Assembly (NCBI RefSeq): GCF_015057185.1
Contig: NZ_SVEV01000036.1
Coordinates: forward strand, 1 to 32,686
DNA: 32,686 nt
Source: Pseudobutyrivibrio sp.
GTDB lineage: Bacteria; Bacillota; Clostridia; Lachnospirales; Lachnospiraceae
Direction: 5' to 3'
This document shows, piece by piece, positions 6,170-32,230 of this stretch. How positions within the stretch are numbered: the stretch's first letter is position 1; each line of letters starts with the position of its first letter. A program made the position numbers and the translations under genes. The notes below the pieces were generated by a model, which made no database searches, was not told the origin of the DNA, and worked only from the letters and a program-made list of their open reading frames with translations.

Positions 6170-6336
6170 AGTTTTCTCCTTCGTAAATTAGCATCCAGCT
6201 TCAGTACTCTTAGAATACAATTTTTATTTGTAAGAATTGTGAAAAAGATGTGTAAATGCTTTAAGAACAAAAAATTCATTGTGATTTACGCCTTGTAACT
6301 ATAAAATGATTATAGCCAATTTAGGTTATTAAGTGA

Positions 6337-6421
6337 GGCGGTAGACATCAAGCTCTTAGGTCTGTGAATGAGGCATTTTTTGCCGAATGAATAGACACTA
6401 AGGCTTGTGGGCGTAACCGCC
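6337..6421 (+). ncRNA. Candidate structured RNA element, copy 1 (dnaE 5' leader)
   Basis: An 85-base imperfect palindrome. Outer helix P1: GGCGGT (6337-6342) with ACCGCC (6416-6421). Conserved inner helix P2: CAAGCT-C-TTAG with CTAA-GGCTTG, with one bulged C. Upper helix P3: GTCT with AGAC, then a GGC/GCC-tipped apex. Single-stranded GTAGACAT on the left and GGGCGTAA on the right are shared with copy 2 (13831-13919). The U-G pair in P2 exists only when the + strand is transcribed, which favours this strand. It ends 23 bases before the dnaE start codon, so it would be in the dnaE leader. I cannot match it to a named RNA family. Confidence 0.6.
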
Positions 6422-6444
6422 GGACTAAAGAAAGAGAGAATGTT

Positions 6445-9400
6445 ATGAGTTTTGTTCATTTGCACACCCATACAGAGTATTCACTGTTGGATGGTTCTAA
6501 TAAAATAAAGTCTTATGTCAAAAAGTGTCTGGATATGGGCATGACAGCGGCGGCTATCACAGACCATGGAAATATGTACGGCGTTACTAAGTTCTATGAT
6601 GAGTGCCAGGCCCAGGGACTGAAGCCAATTATTGGTTGTGAGGTCTATGTTGCACCAGGTTCAAGATTTGATAGAGAAATGGTAAAGGGTGAGGATAGAT
6701 ACTATCACCTTATTTTGCTTGCAGAAAATGAGCAGGGTTATCATAACTTAATTAAAATTGTATCTGCCGGTTATGTGGATGGATTCTACTATAAGCCTCG
6801 TGTAGATTTTGAAATATTGGAGAAATATCATGAGGGACTTATTTGCCTTTCAGCATGTCTTGCAGGTGAGGTGGCTAGAGCATTGGCAAGAGGTGCTTAT
6901 GATGAGGCCAAAACTGTAGCATTAAAATATCGAGATACATTTGGGGCAAATAATTATTTCCTTGAAATGCAGGATCACGGTATAGCTGAGCAGGCCACAG
7001 TAAATCAGGGCCTAATGCGCCTTTCGAAAGAGACAGGCATTCCTCTTGTCGTTACAAATGACTGCCATTACACCAACAAAGAGGATGCAGACAGCCATGA
7101 TGTTTTGCTCTGTATTCAGACTGGCAGCAAATTAGAAGACGTAGACAGAATGCGTTTTGAAACTGAAGAGTTTTACGTAAAATCTGAGGAGGAGATGCTT
7201 GAACTATTTCCTTATGCAAAGGAGGCAGTTTACCGCACTCAGGAGATTGCAGATAGATGCAATGTGGAAATCAAATATCATGTGGCGGGGCTTCCACCAT
7301 TTGATGTTCCAGAAGGGTATGATACATGGACATACCTTAACAAGCTTTGCTTTGACGGCTTAAAGGAGCGCTATGGTGATGACGCACATCTATATGAGGA
7401 CCGTCTTAACTATGAGCTTAATACAATCAAGGAAATGGGTTATGTAGAATATTTCCTTATCGTATGGGACTTCATAAACTATGCTAGAACCCACGGTATA
7501 CCAGTTGGACCTGGCCGTGGTTCTGCAGCAGGCTCACTTATTAGTTACACCACAGGTATCACTGATATTGACCCTATGAAATACAATCTGGTATTCGAGC
7601 GATTTTTGAATCCAGAGCGTGTTAGTATGCCCGATATTGATACTGACTTTGACCCTGTAGGTCGTGAGGAGGTTATCGACTACGTTCGTAAAAAATATGG
7701 AGATGACTGTGTTACTCAGATTGTTACCTTCGGTACCTTAAAGCCAAAGAGTGTAGTTCAGGATGTTGGACGAGTAATGGGCCTTCCAATTCCATTTACT
7801 AACGGTATCAAAAAGCTTATCCCTGATGTGCTTGGCGATGGCGGAAAGGTGACAATCGAATCTGCTATTGAGCATAGCATTGAGCTTAAATCCTTGTATG
7901 AAAGTGACCCTCAGGTCAAAAAACTTTTGGATATTTGCAAACGCCTAGAAGGTCTTCCTAGAAATACAGGTGTACATGCTGCCGGAGTAGTTATCTCTGC
8001 AAAACCAACTGATGAATACATGCCACTTGCCCTTGGTAAAGGCGATGTTATTATTACTCAATACGAAAAAGAGGTTATCGAAGCAATTGGCCTTTTAAAG
8101 ATGGACTTTTTGGGCCTTCGAAACTTAACTGTAATTAACGGCACAATCAAGCAGGTTGAAAAGAACTATGGAATTAAGCTTGATTTGCATGAAATAGATT
8201 ACAACGATAAAGGGGCAATGGAGCTTTTCGCTGCCGGCAAAACTGATGGAGTCTTCCAGTTTGAGTCTACGGGAATGAAGAGCTTACTAAAACAGCTTAA
8301 TCCTACACAGATTGGCGATTTGATTTTGGCAAACGCCGTATATCGTCCAGGCCCAATGGATTTCATACCAAAGATTATCGATTGTAAAAATACAGGAAAA
8401 GAGTCGCCATTTGTTCAGAAGTTTCCTATTCTAAAGGACGTGCTTGGAGACACATATGGGTTCCCTGTTTATCAGGAGCAGGTTATGCAGATTATGACTA
8501 CCTGCGCCGGTTATACAATGGGACGTGCTGACAATGTACGACGAATGATGAGTAAGAAAAAGGTTGATAAGCTAGCTGCAGAGCGTCCAGCATTTGTACA
8601 GGGCTGTTTTGAGAAAAACGGTATTTCTAATGAGGATGCTGATTGGCTCTTCGACCAGTTGATGCCATTCGCTTTGTATGGATTCAACAAATCTCATGCA
8701 GCAGCATATTCGTATGTAGCAGTTCAGACTGCCTACCTGAAAAAATATTACCCACTAGAGTTCATGGCTGCGCTAATGACATCTGTTCTTAACAGCAGTA
8801 CAAAAATTGCTGAATATATTGCTGCTTGCCGTGAGTCAGGAATTGAGCTTTTACCACCTGATGTAAATTATGGTGAGGCAGATTTCGCTGTAGATAATGG
8901 TAAAATCCGCTATGGATTATCTGCTATAAAGTCAGTTGGTAGCAACACTATTACTGCAATTATTCAGGATAGAGAGCGAAACGGCAAGTATCGTGACTTG
9001 GAGGATTTCATTAATCGCGTAACAAAATATGATGCCAATAAACGTACAGTAGAAAATCTTATAAAGGCAGGAGCCCTAGATTCCCTTGAAGGTAACCGCC
9101 GCCAGAAGTGCATGATTTTCCCTCAAATATTGGATTCTGTTAATAACAAGCGAAAGAAAGACATCGATGGTCAGATGTCGCTTTTCGATTTTGCTAGTGA
9201 TGAGCAAAAAGAAGAGATGAAAATAACCTTGCCAAACGTTGATGAATTCGACAAGGAAATGCTTTTGGCTTTTGAAAAAGAATTGATGGGTGTTTATGTT
9301 AGCGGTCATCCACTTGATGATTACATTTCACTATTAGAGAAAAATACTACAGCCCATGCCAGCCAATTTATTATTGATGAGGAAACAGGACAGACAGCTG

Positions 9401-9930
9401 TTACAGATGACAGTGAAGTGATAATTGGAGGTATGATTACCTCAGTTTTAAATAAATACACTAGACAAGGCAAGGCAATGGTATTCCTTACCCTAGAGGA
9501 TTTGACTGGTTCAGTGGAGGTTATAGTATTCCCTAACAGTTACGATAGAGCTCGCACATTTATTTCTGAGGGCAACAAAGTAATTGTAAAAGGCCGTGTT
9601 CAGGCAGACGAAGAAAGAGATGCCAAACTTATCTGTCAGGAAATCAAGAGCTTTGATGACTGTGGTAGAGAGGTTTGGATACAGTTCGAAAACAAAGCAA
9701 GCTTTGATGCCTCAGAGCAACAGCTTAATAGCGTTATCAGGGAAATGGATGGCAATGATGGCCTTGTTATTTTCCTAAAAGAAGAGAAAGCTGTTAAACG
9801 CATGGGTCCTAACTGGGCAATATCTGCTTCCGCGGAAAATCTATCCTTATTATATGAGGCTTTTGGCCAAGAGAATGTCAAAGTTGTTGATAAGAAGGTG
9901 GAATTTCCTAAAAGTCGTGGAAGATATTAG
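6445..9930 (+). CDS. dnaE: DNA polymerase III alpha subunit DnaE
   Basis: A 1161-residue replicative polymerase of the DnaE type (not PolC). Order: PHP domain at the N-terminus with FVHLHTHTEYSLLDGSNKI and AITDHGN (D40, H41), so at least two metal-binding motifs of the PHP site look intact; palm and fingers with PVGPGRGSAAGSLISY and catalytic Asp in MPDIDTDFDP (D397, D399, D401); third catalytic Asp in KMDFLGLRNLTV (D554); GVHAAGVV; helix-hairpin-helix region; OB-fold near residues 990-1075. The third residue of the second motif is T where D-I-D-I-D is usual, a mild variation. The ribosome site is only AGAAAGAGAG. The gene is preceded by the structured element at 6337-6421 and followed by the pfkA promoter. 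Confidence 0.97.
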   Translation: MSFVHLHTHTEYSLLDGSNKIKSYVKKCLDMGMTAAAITDHGNMYGVTKFYDECQAQGLKPIIGCEVYVAPGSRFDREMVKGEDRYYHLILLAENEQGYHNLIKIVSAGYVDGFYYKPRVDFEILEKYHEGLICLSACLAGEVARALARGAYDEAKTVALKYRDTFGANNYFLEMQDHGIAEQATVNQGLMRLSKETGIPLVVTNDCHYTNKEDADSHDVLLCIQTGSKLEDVDRMRFETEEFYVKSEEEMLELFPYAKEAVYRTQEIADRCNVEIKYHVAGLPPFDVPEGYDTWTYLNKLCFDGLKERYGDDAHLYEDRLNYELNTIKEMGYVEYFLIVWDFINYARTHGIPVGPGRGSAAGSLISYTTGITDIDPMKYNLVFERFLNPERVSMPDIDTDFDPVGREEVIDYVRKKYGDDCVTQIVTFGTLKPKSVVQDVGRVMGLPIPFTNGIKKLIPDVLGDGGKVTIESAIEHSIELKSLYESDPQVKKLLDICKRLEGLPRNTGVHAAGVVISAKPTDEYMPLALGKGDVIITQYEKEVIEAIGLLKMDFLGLRNLTVINGTIKQVEKNYGIKLDLHEIDYNDKGAMELFAAGKTDGVFQFESTGMKSLLKQLNPTQIGDLILANAVYRPGPMDFIPKIIDCKNTGKESPFVQKFPILKDVLGDTYGFPVYQEQVMQIMTTCAGYTMGRADNVRRMMSKKKVDKLAAERPAFVQGCFEKNGISNEDADWLFDQLMPFALYGFNKSHAAAYSYVAVQTAYLKKYYPLEFMAALMTSVLNSSTKIAEYIAACRESGIELLPPDVNYGEADFAVDNGKIRYGLSAIKSVGSNTITAIIQDRERNGKYRDLEDFINRVTKYDANKRTVENLIKAGALDSLEGNRRQKCMIFPQILDSVNNKRKKDIDGQMSLFDFASDEQKEEMKITLPNVDEFDKEMLLAFEKELMGVYVSGHPLDDYISLLEKNTTAHASQFIIDEETGQTAVTDDSEVIIGGMITSVLNKYTRQGKAMVFLTLEDLTGSVEVIVFPNSYDRARTFISEGNKVIVKGRVQADEERDAKLICQEIKSFDDCGREVWIQFENKASFDASEQQLNSVIREMDGNDGLVIFLKEEKAVKRMGPNWAISASAENLSLLYEAFGQENVKVVDKKVEFPKSRGRY

Positions 9931-12898: not shown

Positions 12899-12904
12899 TA
12901 TGAT
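12899..12904 (+). promoter_or_regulatory. Possible -10 element of uppP
   Basis: TATGAT lies 58 bases before the uppP start codon, just upstream of the hairpin at 12912-12944. The -35 region is poor, so the call is tentative. If used, the transcript would begin almost exactly at the 5' arm of the hairpin. Confidence 0.3.
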
Positions 12905-12911
12905 ATTATTT

Positions 12912-12950
12912 ACACTGTCGGGCAGGTCCTGGCAGTGTTTTTTTAGGAGG
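12912..12950 (+). terminator. Terminator hairpin with T-run fused to the uppP ribosome-binding site
   Basis: ACACTGTC (12912-12919) pairs with GGCAGTGT (12931-12938) with one G-U. The following T-run (12938-12944) leads directly into AGGAGG (12945-12950) of uppP. It probably ends relQ transcription. Any transcript that crosses it into uppP must read through a terminator, so it could also act as an attenuator. Confidence 0.65.
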
Positions 12951-12956
12951 ATAATT

Positions 12957-13814
12957 ATGATAGAAATATTAAAAGCAATATTATTCGGTATTGTTGAAGG
13001 AATAACTGAATGGTTACCTGTTAGTAGTACCGGTCACATGATTCTTTTGGATGAAATTGTAAAACTTGATGTTTCAGAAGAGTTTTACAGCATGTTTCAG
13101 GTAGTTATTCAGTTAGGTGCAATCCTTGCTGTAGTTATTATTTTCTGGAATAAAATTTGGCCATTTGGCAAGAAAACAAATGAAGCACCACTTAGCAATT
13201 CTGGTATAGGCGCATGGATCAAAAAAGATATTTTCGTATTGTGGTTTCATATTTTGTTGTCATGTATACCAGCAGCAGTAGTTGGTGTACTTTGGGATGA
13301 TCTTTTTGAAGAATTATTCTATCACCCAATCCCAGTGGCACTTGCCCTTATAGTTTTTGGTGTAGCATTTATTATTGTTGAAAGCATGAATGCTGGAAAG
13401 AATGCAAAAATCACTACAGTAGCAGACATTACTTACATGACAGCATTTTTGATTGGTATGTTCCAGCTTATCGCAGCAATCTTCCCAGGAACATCTCGCT
13501 CAGGTGCAACAATTGTTGGTGCCCTTATTATTGGCGTTTCACGAACAGTCGCAGCTGAGTACACCTTCTACTTAGCTATTCCTGTAATGCTTGGCGCAAG
13601 CTTACTTAAAATCTTAAAATTCGGTCTTGATTTTACCTCAATGGAGGCAGCAATTCTCGCAGTAGGCATGGTTGTAGCATTTTTAGTATCTATTGTTGTA
13701 ATTAAATTCTTGATGGATTACATAAAGAAACACGACTTCAAGATTTTTGGATGGTACAGAATTGTACTTGGAATTATAGTTATTATCTGCGGTATAGCAG
13801 GCATCATAAAATAA
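12957..13814 (+). CDS. uppP: Undecaprenyl-diphosphatase UppP (BacA)
   Basis: A 285-residue polytopic membrane enzyme that dephosphorylates undecaprenyl diphosphate to recycle the lipid carrier for peptidoglycan, and that gives bacitracin tolerance. Family motifs: VEGITEWLPVSSTGHMIL (residues 13-30; E14, E18, H27) and FPGTSRSGATIVGALIIGVSR with the conserved Arg at 181. About seven or eight hydrophobic segments span the rest. The ATG at 12957 was chosen because AGGAGG lies 6 bases before it; an in-frame ATG at 12900 lies upstream of the terminator hairpin and has no ribosome site. The structured element at 13831-13919 begins 16 bases after the stop. Confidence 0.95.
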   Translation: MIEILKAILFGIVEGITEWLPVSSTGHMILLDEIVKLDVSEEFYSMFQVVIQLGAILAVVIIFWNKIWPFGKKTNEAPLSNSGIGAWIKKDIFVLWFHILLSCIPAAVVGVLWDDLFEELFYHPIPVALALIVFGVAFIIVESMNAGKNAKITTVADITYMTAFLIGMFQLIAAIFPGTSRSGATIVGALIIGVSRTVAAEYTFYLAIPVMLGASLLKILKFGLDFTSMEAAILAVGMVVAFLVSIVVIKFLMDYIKKHDFKIFGWYRIVLGIIVIICGIAGIIK

Positions 13815-13830
13815 TATATAAAATAAAAAT

Positions 13831-13919
13831 ACCCTCGTAGGCATCAAGCTCTTAGGTTTCTCAAGCGAATCGTTTTAGATGAGCGGAGAAACACTAAGGC
13901 TTGTAGCCGTAACGAGGGT
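13831..13919 (+). ncRNA. Candidate structured RNA element, copy 2 (uppP 3' region)
   Basis: An 89-base relative of the element at 6337-6421. P1: ACCCTCGT with ACGAGGGT. P1b: GGC with GCC. P2: CAAGCT-C-TTAG with CTAA-GGCTTG, identical to copy 1. P3: GTTTCTC with GAGAAAC. P1 and P3 differ entirely from copy 1 in sequence but keep pairing, the hallmark of a selected RNA structure. It lies between uppP (+) and mscL (minus), which are convergent. TTTCTT follows on the + strand and TATTTTTATTTT on the minus strand, so it may also act as a terminator for one or both genes. Confidence 0.6.
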
Positions 13920-13939
13920 TTCTTAGTCTTTGGGATATT

Positions 13940-14386
13940 TTACAGCTGCGCTGTGCAGTGTGGACAGCGAGTAGCTTTGATATTTATTTTGCTGTAGCAG
14001 TATGGGCAATCTTTTTCGGTTGGCTCAGTAGCTTCAGCATCTTCTTTGTTTTTCTTTACAAGTGCAGTGGCACGTTCTGTGGCTCTGTTAATCCCTTTAA
14101 TAAGACAGAAAATAACAAGCGCAACGATTAAAAAGTTAATAACAGCAGTAATGAAATTTCCATAAGTAAGAACAGGTGCATTCTCTCCTGAACCAAGAGT
14201 GACCTTTAATTCTGAAAAGTCTGTTCCGCCGAAGATTCCAAGGATTGGTGTGAGAATATCTTCGTTTAATGAAGTTACGATAGCAGTGAAAGCACCACCA
14301 ATAATGACACCAACTGCCATATCCATTACATTGCCGCGAAGAATAAATTCTTTGAATTCTGAGATAAAACCATTCTTTTTACTCAT
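13940..14386 (-). CDS. mscL: Large-conductance mechanosensitive channel MscL with C-terminal zinc ribbon
   Basis: A 148-residue channel subunit that opens under membrane tension during hypo-osmotic shock. The ATG at 14386 has GGGAGGT before it; the start 13 codons upstream lacks one. Residues 6-40 (FISEFKEFILRGNVMDMAVGVIIGGAFTAIVTSLNEDIL) are the conserved amphipathic N-terminal helix and TM1, and TM2 is near 80-102 (ITAVINFLIVALVIFCLIKGINR). The C-terminal CPYCYSKINIKATRCPHC is a zinc-ribbon tail in place of the usual short helix; this type occurs in clostridia. It is convergent with uppP and divergent from the zinc-ribbon gene at 14602. Confidence 0.95.
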   Translation of the reverse strand: MSKKNGFISEFKEFILRGNVMDMAVGVIIGGAFTAIVTSLNEDILTPILGIFGGTDFSELKVTLGSGENAPVLTYGNFITAVINFLIVALVIFCLIKGINRATERATALVKKNKEDAEATEPTEKDCPYCYSKINIKATRCPHCTAQL

Positions 14387-14519
14387 AGTGACCTCCCATA
14401 AATATATGATAACTAAATAAAACAATTTTATTATAGCAATCTAGATAACAAACCAAAAGATGTACAGTTGGAAAAATTCGTTGAAAAAAGTATAAAAAAT
14501 TAAAATCGTTAAAAAAATG

Positions 14520-15391: not shown

Positions 15392-16888
15392 ATGTTTTGT
15401 GAAAATTGTGGAACAAAATTAGAAGACGGTACAGTCTTTTGTACTAACTGTGGCGCAAAACAGGACGTTGTTCCTGCAGTTGCACCAGACTTTAAGCCAG
15501 AGGGCGAGACACCTGTTACAACTGTTGACGAGGCAGTTGCTGCAACAGAGTCAGCTGTAGAGGGGGCTCCAGAGGCAGCTCCATCCGCACAGCAGGCAGC
15601 TCCTCAGTTCCAGCAGGCACCACAGCAGCCTTATGGTCAGCAGCCATACGCTCAGCAGCCATATGGCCAGCAGCCTTACGGTCAGCCATACCAGGCTGCA
15701 CCAAAGCAGAATCCGCTTAAGAAGGTACCTATTTGGGCTTGGATTATTATTGCAGTAGTTATTATTGCAGGTATTGTAGGATTTATTTTCCTTAACAAGC
15801 GCATGCATACAATTGATATCAATGACTACATCACAGTTGAGTTTGATGGTTATGATACAGTAGGTACAGCTACAATTGTTCTTGATGAAGATTTCTGGGA
15901 TGAAGTTTACGAGAAGTCAAGCTTCAAGGGCAAGAAGAAGTCTAGCACATTCTCTTCATACTACACTGAGGGTGAGTATATGGAGGATGAGATTGGTGGT
16001 TACATCAAGTATGAGCTTGACAAGGATTCAAAGCTTACAAACGGCGATGAAGTTAAGGTTGAGTACAAGATTAAGACTGACAAAATTGCTAAGAAGTACG
16101 GTGTTACTATCGAAGCAAAGGACAAGACATTCAAGGTAGCAGATCTTGAAGAGGTTGAGTCATTTAATCCATTTGATGATATTGAAATCACATTTACAGG
16201 TGTTTCTGGAGATGGTGAGTTCCAATACGAAGTTACAAACGAAAGAGATATCTATGATGAATTCTCATTCTCATGTGACGATGATTGGTATCTTGAAGAA
16301 GGTGACACAACAACAATCAAGTTTGCTGAATATTGGGATGAGGATGAACTTATTGAGTACTGTGCAGAAGAGTACGGTATGATTCCTACAGAGACAGAGA
16401 TGGAAGTTACTGTAGAGGGACTTGGTTCATATGTTGATGATGCAACACTCCTTACAGCTGCAAATGTAGCAGACATGGATGCAGAAGCTCAGGACGAGAT
16501 TACAACAGAGCTTGATAGCTTGTATGCTGACTATGACTACACAGTAAACTCTATGGATTACCTCGGTTCATATGTTGTTTCTGATGGAACATACGGCAAC
16601 TATGTATACTTTGTATACAAGGTAAATCTCGACATCGAGATGGAAGGCGAGTCAGGATCTGTTGAGTACTACACAACAGTTGAGTTCTCAGATGTTGTTG
16701 CTAACGCTGATGGAAGCAATATTTCTTACAGCTACATTTCTGGTACACCATACAATTCATATGATTTTGATATCGGTGGATACTATGGATATGTATACGG
16801 ATATGAGACTCTTGAGGACCTTCAGGACGAAATGTCATACTACGAGTCTTACTATGATGTAACTAATAATGTTTCAGTTTCTGAATAA
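15392..16888 (+). CDS. Zinc-ribbon, PYGQQ-repeat, single-pass membrane protein with acidic extracellular region
   Basis: A 498-residue protein. Order: classic zinc ribbon (CENCG...CTNCG; Cys 3, 6, 17, 20); acidic then Gln/Pro/Tyr-rich low-complexity stretch with repeated PYGQQ/PYAQQ units (about 65-103); one membrane segment (about 112-133, WAWIIIAVVIIAGIVGFIFL); then about 365 outward-facing residues very rich in Asp, Glu and Tyr. The outside part seems to contain two related beta-rich units, each with a TNGDEV or LEEGDT turn followed by a Lys/Glu-rich helix and a TI-EAK or MEVTVEGL strand. The topology resembles TcaA/YvbJ-type proteins. Function is unknown. It ends at the strong terminator at 16905-16942. 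Confidence 0.85.
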   Translation: MFCENCGTKLEDGTVFCTNCGAKQDVVPAVAPDFKPEGETPVTTVDEAVAATESAVEGAPEAAPSAQQAAPQFQQAPQQPYGQQPYAQQPYGQQPYGQPYQAAPKQNPLKKVPIWAWIIIAVVIIAGIVGFIFLNKRMHTIDINDYITVEFDGYDTVGTATIVLDEDFWDEVYEKSSFKGKKKSSTFSSYYTEGEYMEDEIGGYIKYELDKDSKLTNGDEVKVEYKIKTDKIAKKYGVTIEAKDKTFKVADLEEVESFNPFDDIEITFTGVSGDGEFQYEVTNERDIYDEFSFSCDDDWYLEEGDTTTIKFAEYWDEDELIEYCAEEYGMIPTETEMEVTVEGLGSYVDDATLLTAANVADMDAEAQDEITTELDSLYADYDYTVNSMDYLGSYVVSDGTYGNYVYFVYKVNLDIEMEGESGSVEYYTTVEFSDVVANADGSNISYSYISGTPYNSYDFDIGGYYGYVYGYETLEDLQDEMSYYESYYDVTNNVSVSE

Positions 16889-26501: not shown

Positions 26502-27206
26502 ATGTTTTGTGAAAAATGTGGTAAAGAATTACCTGATGGAGTAAAGTTTTGTTCTGGCTGTGGTGCGCCACAGAACCCGCAGCAGAATACATTTAATCAA
26601 CAACAGCAATATAGTGCACAGCCTGATTATGGATACAATCAGCAACAGCAATATAGTGCACAGCCTGATTACGGATACAATCAGCAACAGCAATATAATG
26701 CGCAGACTGATTATGGATATGCACAGCAACAATATGCTCAACAGCCTGGATACTATCCACCTAAGAAAAAGGGCCATGGTCTACTGGTTGTACTGATTCT
26801 TTTATTTATAGTTGTTGTGGGATTCGGTAGCTTATACTTTATTTTCCCAACACCACAAAAGGCGGTTGAAAAATGGTTTGAAGCTGTGAAGGATCTCGAA
26901 TTTGACGAAGCAGCCAAGTACATGGATTCTAAATCAGCAGCTGCATTACATTTGTTATCTTCCTACGAGGACGATGCATATGGTGTTTTTGGCGATTTGT
27001 TCGCTGGTGTAGAGCTAGAAGATGTTGAAGCTGATTATGGTGATGATGCTAATATAGTCACTGATGTATTTAATAAATATTTTGCAGATGAATGCACAGT
27101 GTATGTTACTGTCAGCTATGACGGCGACGAGGAAGTGCTTGAATTACCTATGATCAACGAAGGCATTGGTGATTGGAAGATTGATGGTGGTGAAATCGAT
27201 TTATAA
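26502..27206 (+). CDS. Zinc-ribbon, QQQYSAQPDYGYN-repeat, single-pass membrane protein
   Basis: A 234-residue protein of the same design as the one at 15392. Order: zinc ribbon (CEKCGKELPDGVKFCSGCG; Cys 3, 6, 17, 20); low-complexity Gln/Tyr linker built from three 14-residue repeats (QQQYSAQPDYGYNQ, the same again, then QQQYNAQTDYGYAQ; about 34-75); basic PPKKKGH stop; one membrane segment (about 93-113, LLVVLILLFIVVVGFGSLYF); and a 120-residue outer domain starting TPQKAVEKWFEAVKDLEFDEAAKYM. That resembles small DUF4878/SnoaL-like folds found outside many clostridial zinc-ribbon proteins. The function is unknown. AAGGAG precedes the ATG. Confidence 0.85.
   Translation: MFCEKCGKELPDGVKFCSGCGAPQNPQQNTFNQQQQYSAQPDYGYNQQQQYSAQPDYGYNQQQQYNAQTDYGYAQQQYAQQPGYYPPKKKGHGLLVVLILLFIVVVGFGSLYFIFPTPQKAVEKWFEAVKDLEFDEAAKYMDSKSAAALHLLSSYEDDAYGVFGDLFAGVELEDVEADYGDDANIVTDVFNKYFADECTVYVTVSYDGDEEVLELPMINEGIGDWKIDGGEIDL
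26604..26729 (+). repeat. Three in-frame 42-bp tandem repeats
   Basis: Units begin at 26604, 26646 and 26688. The first two differ by a single synonymous base; the third has a few changes and grades into the following sequence. They encode the Gln/Tyr-rich linker of the zinc-ribbon protein and could vary in number by slippage. Confidence 0.85.
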
Positions 27207-30521: not shown

Positions 30522-30574
30522 ATTGTCTGAAAATCCAAGGGATTTTTTAAAGCTTTGCAACTTTAGAAAATCCC

Positions 30575-30603
30575 TTGACTTATACTAAAAGTTACTATAG
30601 AAT
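30575..30603 (+). promoter_or_regulatory. tRNA-Gly promoter, copy A
   Basis: TTGACT (30575-30580) and TAGAAT (30598-30603) are 17 bases apart; transcription would begin about 70 bases before the tRNA. Confidence 0.7.
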
Positions 30604-30681
30604 AACACATGTCGTCAGGAAGTGGCGGCTGGTCGAAAGACTGGCACCATCGTTTCAATTTCGTTGAAACTCTGGCACTAT

Positions 30682-30754
30682 GCGCGAGTGGCTCAGTTGG
30701 TGGAGCGCCACCTTGCCAAGGTGGAGGTCGCGGGTTCGAGTCCCGTCTCGCGCT
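30682..30754 (+). tRNA. tRNA-Gly(GCC), copy A
   Basis: A 73-base cloverleaf. Acceptor GCGCGAG/CTCGCGC, D-arm GCTC-AGTTGGTG-GAGC, anticodon arm CCACC-TTGCCAA-GGTGG with anticodon GCC, variable AGGTC, T-arm GCGGG-TTCGAGT-CCCGT (last pair G-T), discriminator T. CCA is not encoded. A terminator hairpin begins 5 bases after it. Confidence 0.97.
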
Positions 30755-30758
30755 CTTT

Positions 30759-30810
30759 TAGTATAAAAAATAGGATCATCCATTTATGGGTGATCCTATT
30801 TTTTATACTA
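30759..30810. terminator. Long bidirectional terminator after tRNA-Gly copy A
   Basis: The arms 30759-30781 and 30788-30810 pair over 23 bp with one G-U, capped by a 6-base loop. Both arms are rich in A on the left and T on the right, so it can stop transcription from either side. Confidence 0.85.
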
Positions 30811-31857: not shown

Positions 31858-31988
31858 AACATTAACCGCCTATAATTATAATTTAATCATGAGTATAGCA
31901 TATCGTCCTGACAAAAACCGAAAAAAGGATATTTGAATTTTCTGAAAATCGGAGAATAAAAGTGAAGCTTTGCAACTTTAAAAAATGT

Positions 31989-32017
31989 ATTGACTTATGT
32001 GAAAAGTTACTATAGAA
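31989..32017 (+). promoter_or_regulatory. tRNA-Gly promoter, copy B
   Basis: TTGACT (31989-31994) and TAGAAT (32012-32017) are 17 bases apart, the same boxes as in copy A. Confidence 0.7.
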
Positions 32018-32096
32018 TAACACATGTCGTCAGGAAGTGACGGCTGGTCGAAAGACTGGCACCATCGTTTCAACTTCGTTGAAACTCTGGCACTAT

Positions 32097-32169
32097 GCGC
32101 GAGTGGCTCAGTTGGTGGAGCGCCACCTTGCCAAGGTGGAGGTCGCGGGTTCGAGTCCCGTCTCGCGCT
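32097..32169 (+). tRNA. tRNA-Gly(GCC), copy B
   Basis: Identical over all 73 bases to the tRNA at 30682-30754: anticodon GCC in CCACC-TTGCCAA-GGTGG, acceptor GCGCGAG/CTCGCGC, no encoded CCA. The terminator stem that follows begins with its last bases. Confidence 0.97.
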
Positions 32170-32230
32170 CTTTTAGTATAAAAAATGAGGTCATCCAATA
32201 GGATGATCTCATTTTTTATATTAAAAGAGC
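32167..32230. terminator. Very long bidirectional terminator after tRNA-Gly copy B
   Basis: The arms 32167-32196 and 32201-32230 pair over 30 bp with two G-U pairs and a 4-base loop AATA. The middle of the stem differs from copy A at several places but stays paired. The left arm starts inside the last three bases of the tRNA, which could delay 3' processing. Confidence 0.85.

Follow-up and report, generated by a model that had tools for sequence, protein, structure and literature searches.

Hairpins interspersed through bacterial genomes usually pass for selfish DNA whose effects are incidental, and riboswitch leaders are structured 5' leaders that lie near the SD sequence. The BOX elements of Streptococcus pneumoniae are small interspersed repeats of many copies, predicted to form stem-loops when transcribed and carrying an exchangeable middle module; they can affect downstream expression and insert into one another, and their mobilisation has been proposed to proceed via IS transposases with similar ends (passages of PMC3049150). 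The same passages present the ERIC and Correia (CE) elements as interspersed hairpins that are said to be RNase target sites when transcribed (PMC3049150). REP sequences and REPINs appear in the sections of PMC3116915 used here as extragenic hairpins of about a hundred copies with compensatory changes in the hairpin, a REPIN being made of two inverted REP palindromes.

The element described here is about 100 nt long and occurs in about 100 copies per genome of Pseudobutyrivibrio. Like BOX, as portrayed in those passages, it is many-copied and stem-loop-forming, has an apparently exchangeable module and is found in nested copies. It differs in that its sense orientation, SD-anchored placement, sense-strand covariation and recurrence at orthologous genes were measured, BOX being compared by description only, and in that we see no counterpart to the IS transposases with similar ends mentioned there. 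It shares with REPINs, to the extent of the cited sections, the extragenic position, the copy number near one hundred and the compensatory changes, yet it is one long strand-specific hairpin with asymmetric conserved flanks (GUAG/GUAAC) and not two inverted palindromes. The RNase-target class represented by ERIC and CE, elements of other bacteria that we compare by their partial description, may come closest in mechanism to the one that we propose. The leader copies resemble riboswitch leaders in being structured and close to the SD; unlike these, they have no common downstream pathway and no Rfam match. We lean towards the reading that this is a mobile-derived, genus-restricted mRNA-end element that is kept by selection on its RNA fold and whose retained copies work in mRNA.

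Two copies in one contig and the anatomy of the element

The window, meaning the whole stretch of DNA that was analysed (32,686 nt of Pseudobutyrivibrio sp.), carries two copies, one before dnaE and one between the convergent genes uppP and mscL. Scores below refer to covariance model R1, built on the 24 copies with an exact inner helix, and to its refined version R2.

6334 to 6424, + strand: element copy 1, leader type, before dnaE (R1 88.7 bits, E 4.8e-24; R2 86.3 bits; model positions 1-91)
6337 to 6342, + strand: copy 1 outer helix P1, 5' strand GGCGGT, partner 6416-6421 (minimum-energy fold)
6349 to 6359, + strand: copy 1 inner helix P3, 5' strand CAAGC-U-CUUAG, U6354 being the bulge, partner 6398-6407
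6398 to 6407, + strand: copy 1 inner helix P3, 3' strand CUAAGGCUUG (fold and covariation)
6416 to 6421, + strand: copy 1 outer helix P1, 3' strand ACCGCC (fold and covariation)
6422 to 6430, + strand: leader tail GGACTAAAG, fitting the 3' flank GGAYTA of leader-type copies (flank counts)
6445 to 9930, + strand: dnaE, DNA polymerase III subunit alpha (NF005298, first 300 residues, E 7e-145)
12900 to 13814, + strand: uppP, undecaprenyl-diphosphate phosphatase (TIGR00753 from residue 26; the true start may be further in)
13830 to 13920, + strand: element copy 2, of the terminator type, flanked by the convergent genes uppP and mscL (R1 106.4 bits, E 1.5e-29; R2 100.6 bits)
13831 to 13838, + strand: copy 2 outer stem, 5' strand ACCCTCGT, partner 13912-13919, with an A-rich stretch preceding and TTTC after the stem
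13845 to 13855, + strand: copy 2 inner helix P3, 5' strand, bulge U13850, partner 13894-13903
13894 to 13903, + strand: copy 2 inner helix P3, 3' strand CUAAGGCUUG (fold and covariation)
13912 to 13919, + strand: copy 2 outer stem, 3' strand ACGAGGGT (fold)
13940 to 14425, - strand: mscL, convergent with uppP (PF01741, E 3.3e-41; listed from a TTG start)

A preliminary description of this DNA, made from the letters alone, had pointed to a structured RNA in two copies, and both are indeed found at 6337-6421 and 13831-13919. As it had claimed, the inner helix is the same in the two copies, and the outer and upper helices differ in sequence yet pair in both minimum-energy folds. These folds have energies of -40.3 kcal/mol (z -5.3) for copy 1 and -47.6 kcal/mol (z -8.4) for copy 2, and in neither case was any of 200 dinucleotide shuffles as stable as the real fold. 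The bulge of the inner helix had been taken for a C, which is wrong: the bulged base is U, and the C at the sixth step pairs with G, this pair becoming A-U in 15 copies (columns 26/165). As the U is bulged, the U-G pair that had been cited in favour of the + strand is probably not formed; the assignment to the + strand nevertheless holds on other grounds, namely the excess of G·U over A·C given below and the model scores (R2 gives copy 2 a score of 100.6 on the + strand versus 35.3 on the - strand).

The dnaE ATG (6445) lies 23 bases after position 6421, a position that suits a cis-acting leader, as had been suggested. The copy after uppP is real as well, only it is neither the second half of a two-copy RNA, the genome holding 111 model matches, nor a second leader, being terminator-like. 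Judged by its sequence, copy 2 is scored as a putative intrinsic terminator, with an 8-bp stem followed by TTTC and 5 T in 9 positions. Together with most copies at convergent gene ends it shares with intrinsic terminators a continuous GC-containing stem and an A-run before and/or a T-rich stretch after it; an intrinsic terminator, however, needs no conserved 75-nt core, and copy 2 has the family core in its loop. Copy 1 fails the terminator test, as GGACTAAAG follows the stem, with neither a stem extension nor a U-run.

Read from the outside in, the R2 consensus begins with a closing helix and an internal loop, continues with P1, the A/GUA loop, P2, P3 and P4, and ends, past a two-pair step and a tandem G-A, in a 3-bp stem capped by a hexaloop, the whole forming one long hairpin with GUAG as the conserved left flank and GUAAC as the right. 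The closing helix is weak (cognate flanks -2.11 versus swapped flanks -1.64 kcal/mol; 4 in 1000 permutations), and the outer ends, TTTARATGA and GGAYTA, are only imperfectly complementary. The internal loop outside P1 reads UGA/GGA or AUA/GAG, and an A-G mismatch stands just outside leader-type P1 in 61 of 111 copies of the source genome and in 95 of 141 elsewhere. P1 is variable and ends in GU/AC; it is followed by the 1x3 internal loop A/GUA and by P2 of 3 bp. P3 is nearly constant, CAAGC-U-CUUAG pairing with CUAAGGCUUG and leaving the U bulged, and P4 is variable; P2, P4 and the distal helices covary too.

The form before dnaE in genome G202 is minimal, with P1, P2 and a short P3 only (L220/L273). 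At three loci, L018 2543-2642 (-), L305 1525-1624 (+) and L048 232-381 (+), the distal part is swapped for another conserved hairpin, TTTTGAGGAGTATAGCG ... GCGATCTCAAAA. Across the copies, the arrangement suggests that distal domains may be exchangeable between them.

Range within the genus and conservation of the fold

The exact inner-helix pattern occurs at 24 places in the source genome, and the reversed pattern at none. With R1, 150 of 1364 candidates were scored and gave 111 matches at E<=0.01. The 111 copies counted in what follows are what remains of 115 distinct rows after removal of three wrong-strand matches and one cut duplicate; the 112-row count given below drops the three only, and the pair counts keep all 115. 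A loose stem-and-flank scan was uninformative, with 436 hits compared to 438 in a control that contained duplicates.

Within Pseudobutyrivibrio the element was found in 27 of 29 genomes (1,615 matches summed, with up to 149 candidates scored per genome), including all 21 with at least 90% completeness and at most 5% contamination; the two genomes that lack it are 83% and 86% complete. Among other Lachnospiraceae none was detected outside the genus, Pseudobutyrivibrio being the one positive genus of 199 in the covariance-model search and the one of 334 with R2 under strict filters, and in other families of the order none of 15 genera was positive. The filters of the 199-genus and 334-genus scans were tighter and let through a small number of candidates for scoring in each genome, so that distant or rare forms could have escaped them. 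A tight pattern run against 84,980 species genomes gave at least 104 stretches; among the matches listed all belong to Pseudobutyrivibrio or to Butyrivibrio fibrisolvens 16/4, which names the genus and does not prove restriction to it. The same pattern gave no stretch in viral contigs, and BLAST at distant settings gave no match of copy 1 to plasmids or of copy 2 to phages. In the samples tested, the element is confined to the genus Pseudobutyrivibrio.

No Rfam 15 family reached its gathering score over either copy when the whole window was scanned. Around copy 1 there was no match at E<=10, around copy 2 there were only two weak unrelated ones (15.4 and 13.9 bits compared to gathering scores of 71 and 50), and 20 further loci carrying copies or the second family described below gave none. 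We found no description of the element in the open-access literature searched. The kind of covariance-model search that the preliminary description had proposed returned many covarying, mostly intergenic homologues within Lachnospiraceae, all in one genus, and none of the outcomes that it had named as contrary (an absence of homologues, helices without covariation, a match to an Rfam family) occurred.

That pairing is kept while the sequence changes had been proposed from two copies, and it is borne out in larger sets, the covariation lying far above shuffles in source-genome and other-genome rows alike. In an alignment of 24 copies that was not fitted to the structure, 93.8% of the cells pair and 17 of 31 pairs have changed on both sides, for a covariation score of 0.432 versus 0.146 in shuffled alignments (reached by 0 of 500), the further pair types being matched by 64 of 500 shuffles. 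The invariance of the inner helix in this set is a product of selection by us, because the copies were picked by that helix. The 115 distinct rows of the source genome, fitted to the model, have 96.5% of their cells paired and double changes at 29 of 31 pairs, with a score of 0.682 versus 0.178 (0 of 500). In 108 distinct rows from other genomes, likewise fitted to the model though none of them was used in building it, 97.2% are paired, 27 of 31 pairs are double-changed and the score is 0.520 versus 0.149. Sliding the partner strand by 1-3 columns lowers pairing to 23-43% in these two alignments. P1 is 99.6% paired over the 115 rows, with double changes at all six of its pairs. The other-genome model scans covered 100 loci plus 38 more (18 of the 104 stretches and 20 syntenic regions), loci L091-L094 and L177-L200 standing outside them.

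The excess of G·U pairs over A·C mismatches, 117 to 15 in 112 rows of the source genome and 111 to 12 in the 141 copies from elsewhere, identifies the sense strand as the one that folds; taken alone, this bias would fit single-stranded DNA as well as RNA. Compensatory change conserves the fold on that strand, and we regard selection on the element at the RNA level as close to certain. We also considered DNA recombination sites of the attC kind, and set them aside as the copies are dispersed and sense-biased, with G·U over A·C.

Placement beside genes and sharing of sites

The neighbours of the 111 unique copies were called by a simple ORF script. By this count 69 copies are sense to both neighbours, 17 antisense to both, 19 lie between convergent and 4 between divergent genes, and 2 at an edge; between co-directional genes the excess of sense over antisense (69 versus 17) has a p of 1.3e-8. 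In 68 of the 111, a start codon led by an SD follows 10-60 nt (median 22) after the end of the copy. For co-directional copies the median gap is 19 on the 3' side and 52 on the 5' side, and in 34 of the 69 sense copies both gaps are at most 60 nt, an operon-like spacing. An overlap of more than 30 nt with a called ORF was seen in 13 of 111 copies, mostly with an over-long start of the downstream gene.

The base of the hairpin differs with this context. P1 is extended by 5.1 bp on average in the 19 convergent copies versus 0.49 bp in the 69 sense co-directional ones, and 15 of the 19 are terminator-like by score. There are thus two base types, a leader base near the SD and a terminator-like base at convergent gene ends. 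An extended stem with an A-run is present in 4 of the 17 antisense copies, and these four could, going by their letters, be terminators for the opposite strand; a leader model leaves no room for the 17 other than as reverse terminators.

NCBIfam scans were made with 40 of the 68 downstream proteins, each cut to at most 300 residues, and 29 of them match a family at E<=1e-25, many as N-terminal fragments that score below full-length cut-offs; the other 11 of the 40 have no family match at that threshold. The families include HydG, IlvD, transketolase, SmpB, GpsA, FabZ, FabK, FabD, Era and SerA, as well as Ung, Icd, PolA, ArgB, PyrF, CysS, DapA, SMC, PurH and others, with roles in DNA replication and repair, translation, fatty acid, amino acid and nucleotide metabolism and central carbon metabolism. 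No common pathway is visible among the 40 scanned of the 68, and the targets look constitutive; fabK, fabD and fabZ, on one contig, have a copy each. The computed exposure of the region from SD to start is 0.509 with the element, 0.494 with a shuffled element and 0.492 without the element, and it is better with the element in 40 of 68 cases (p 0.20). As this exposure is unchanged, a simple model in which the element shields or blocks the RBS gets no support and was rejected.

Copies recur at the same genes in different genomes. Enough flank was available for 116 other-genome copies; in 43 of them a homologue of a gene that follows some source-genome copy lies no more than 900 nt downstream, compared to 18 of 329 control windows displaced by 1.0-3.6 kb; in a wider set 48 of 141 other-genome copies share the downstream gene, 38 of these sharing the upstream gene too. 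Over the 1434 pair cells of the 48 matched site pairs, 970 are the same, 330 carry a double change that keeps pairing, 39 a single change with pairing kept, and 95 are broken in one or both. Before ilvD in four other genomes the interior is nearly identical and P1 reads GCUAGU, GCUGGU or GCCUGU, each with a matching partner. The site partners resemble each other more than they do random other-genome copies, ranking at a median of 0.82 (mean 0.68, 45 pairs) among these, and yet 27 of the 30 site-shared copies are closest to another source-genome copy, a comparison biased by the 110 paralogues that face 1-4 partners. Paralogue-nearest copies and moderate partner ranks indicate that the sharing of sites is owed partly to turnover or hot-spot insertion and partly to descent.

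Sites are also gained or lost. At the dnaE site, G202 has the minimal form, and in G201, which is empty, stop and start codon abut; L053 (filled) and L108 (empty) form a like pair, and with their conserved flanks both cases represent an insertion polymorphism at an orthologous site. An SD lies next to the start at the filled dnaE site of G202 and at L053, and their empty counterparts have none there; filled and empty sites both have an SD in the pairs L049/L175 and L314/L155. Pairwise comparison classed 508 sites as filled, 325 as empty and 85 as longer, figures that include self and duplicate matches and are not event counts. With so many of the orthologous sites empty, no copy looks essential by itself. 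At L101 6432-6521, L130 1748-1838 and L141 3111-3204 a whole copy is nested within the distal stem of an older one, both halves of which remain paired. Before uppP, L270 has a full leader copy (7258-7346) with AGGAGG inside the outer stem, and its close relative L268 keeps both outer strands there and has lost most of the core.

Fragments of the 3' end beside copies number 3 versus 0 in a reversed control in the source genome and 12 versus 1 in the others, and 5' fragments 18 versus 17 and 30 versus 17, which we read as no excess. Junctions were inspected by eye only, and a consistent target-site duplication was not recognised among them. Half-site patterns in the source genome comprise 60 left and 76 right halves, a handful of which, compared by eye, have no partner. 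Of four half-site stretches inspected, one is a right half beside the second family (L329), two are ambiguous and one is a probable coding match; no autonomous transposase-bearing version was seen among them. The Y1/RAYT transposase family PF01797 is present in 10 of 29 genomes of the genus (8 of the 21 good ones), and its sole match in the source genome (contig C15, 7087-7413) is distant from the nearest listed copy on that contig, at 50536. Membership in the REPIN/RAYT group was rejected, since this transposase is missing from 19 of the 29 genomes and the element lacks the symmetry of a REPIN.

Readings of the element and a second family

The element very likely does something, and we are confident that it has spread by a process of copying or insertion. 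That it has a host function at mRNA ends is probable. The SD-proximal and terminator locations, together with the lack of pathway logic, fit processing or stabilisation of mRNA ends, and the RNase cleavage of ERIC and CE transcripts mentioned in the cited passages of PMC3049150 makes processing plausible here by analogy. We propose that the elements spread by a copying process and that the retained copies would provide a shared recognition module close to the ends of mRNAs or cistrons, where the constant core (the A/GUA loop, P3 with its bulge and the tandem G-A) may be bound or cut by a trans-acting factor, the outcome being a cistron-specific processing or stability of the mRNA that would be independent of the function of the gene. 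We infer such a factor, and that it is dedicated to the element is a tentative part of the proposal.

A serious, if unlikely, alternative is a non-autonomous mobile repeat of the MITE, BOX or REPIN kind that does nothing for its host; its hairpin would persist because only well-folded copies move, and its places before SDs and in terminators would reflect insertion preference and tolerance. This reading accommodates the high copy number within one genus, the presence and absence at sites with conserved flanks, the nested copies and the excess of 3'-end fragments over reversed controls; compensatory changes are reported for REPIN hairpins too (PMC3116915, in the sections used). Its difficulties are that the sharing of sites (43 of 116 versus 18 of 329) and the compensating changes of P1 before ilvD point to selection on resident copies, that antisense copies are rare (17 versus 69), that the type of base, by its P1 extension, fits the context, and that PF01797, the only transposase family searched, is found in 10 of 29 genomes compared to 27 of 29 for the element.

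A class of metabolite-sensing riboswitches or attenuators would explain the leader position before the SD, the conserved unpaired bases in a structured core and the terminator-like stems of a subset, yet the 29 family-matched downstream proteins share no pathway and the terminator-type copies stand after genes at convergent ends and not before genes, which makes this reading very improbable. We give slightly less credit to structure without selection, arising from the correction of quasi-palindromes or from insertion into the loops of host hairpins, with P1 being the host stem. P1 is in fact the most variable helix and is continuous with a host-like terminator stem in terminator-type copies; however, the bulge, the 1x3 loop and the tandem G-A persist through all change, P2, P4 and the distal helices covary as well, leader-type P1 keeps its outside A-G mismatch, and G·U is far above A·C, so that this reading is already largely refuted. 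The least probable is a stand-alone small RNA gene in about 100 copies, which had been raised for the dnaE copy and would suit the compact, very stable fold, as the copies are anchored to start codons or gene ends (53 of the 69 sense co-directional copies end at most 30 nt before the next start codon and 36 begin at most 60 nt after the previous stop codon).

Returning to an mRNA-end element kept by selection on its fold, it is conceivable, if doubtful, that the copies amount to a genus-wide post-transcriptional system, in which one mobile core with a leader or terminator base and exchangeable distal domains would be distributed over about 100 transcription units and read by one trans-acting reader, as a shared mRNA-end signal for unrelated housekeeping genes. 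Before dnaE in five genomes (G205, G209, G212, G206 and G221) lies a different, larger hairpin, GGCAAGCGCGAGCAGGG ... CCCTGCGGGAGCATG, with variants, whose leader ends, TTTAGATGAGC ... GCGGACTA, resemble those of the element. On this view a second, unrelated-looking core that shares the leader base at this site suggests that the base may be an output module held in common, to which exchangeable cores would supply the input. This second structured repeat, GGCAAGCGCGAG...GGGAGCATG, was seen at L203 and L207-L210 (upstream of dnaE), L121, L078, L037 and L329, with ten paired instances among the loci examined and no credible Rfam match.

Hundreds of natural compensatory variants, together with the sense bias, the anchoring to start codons and the reuse across species, make selection on RNA measurable in this family, and nested and missing copies show its movement. 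The family is a tractable case for studying the passage of a mobile repeat into an mRNA signal shared by many genes, in hosts that are rumen bacteria important for fibre digestion, and the element is a ready bait for a protein that would read it. With more than 1,600 instances, it would also make a new family for Rfam.

The window has further repeats of its own. Two 233-nt repeats, 95% identical, lie at 30550-30782 and 31965-32197, and each holds a tRNA-Gly (gcc) gene with a 30-nt inverted repeat immediately behind it. Positions 1-75 are the end of a group II intron (RF00029, 40.4 bits) located exactly at the contig start, so that the assembly, of which the window is one whole contig, breaks at the intron. 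Short CAG/CAACAA-rich tandem repeats at 15602-15686 and 26595-26731 lie inside ORFs that share a Cys-rich N-terminal stretch.
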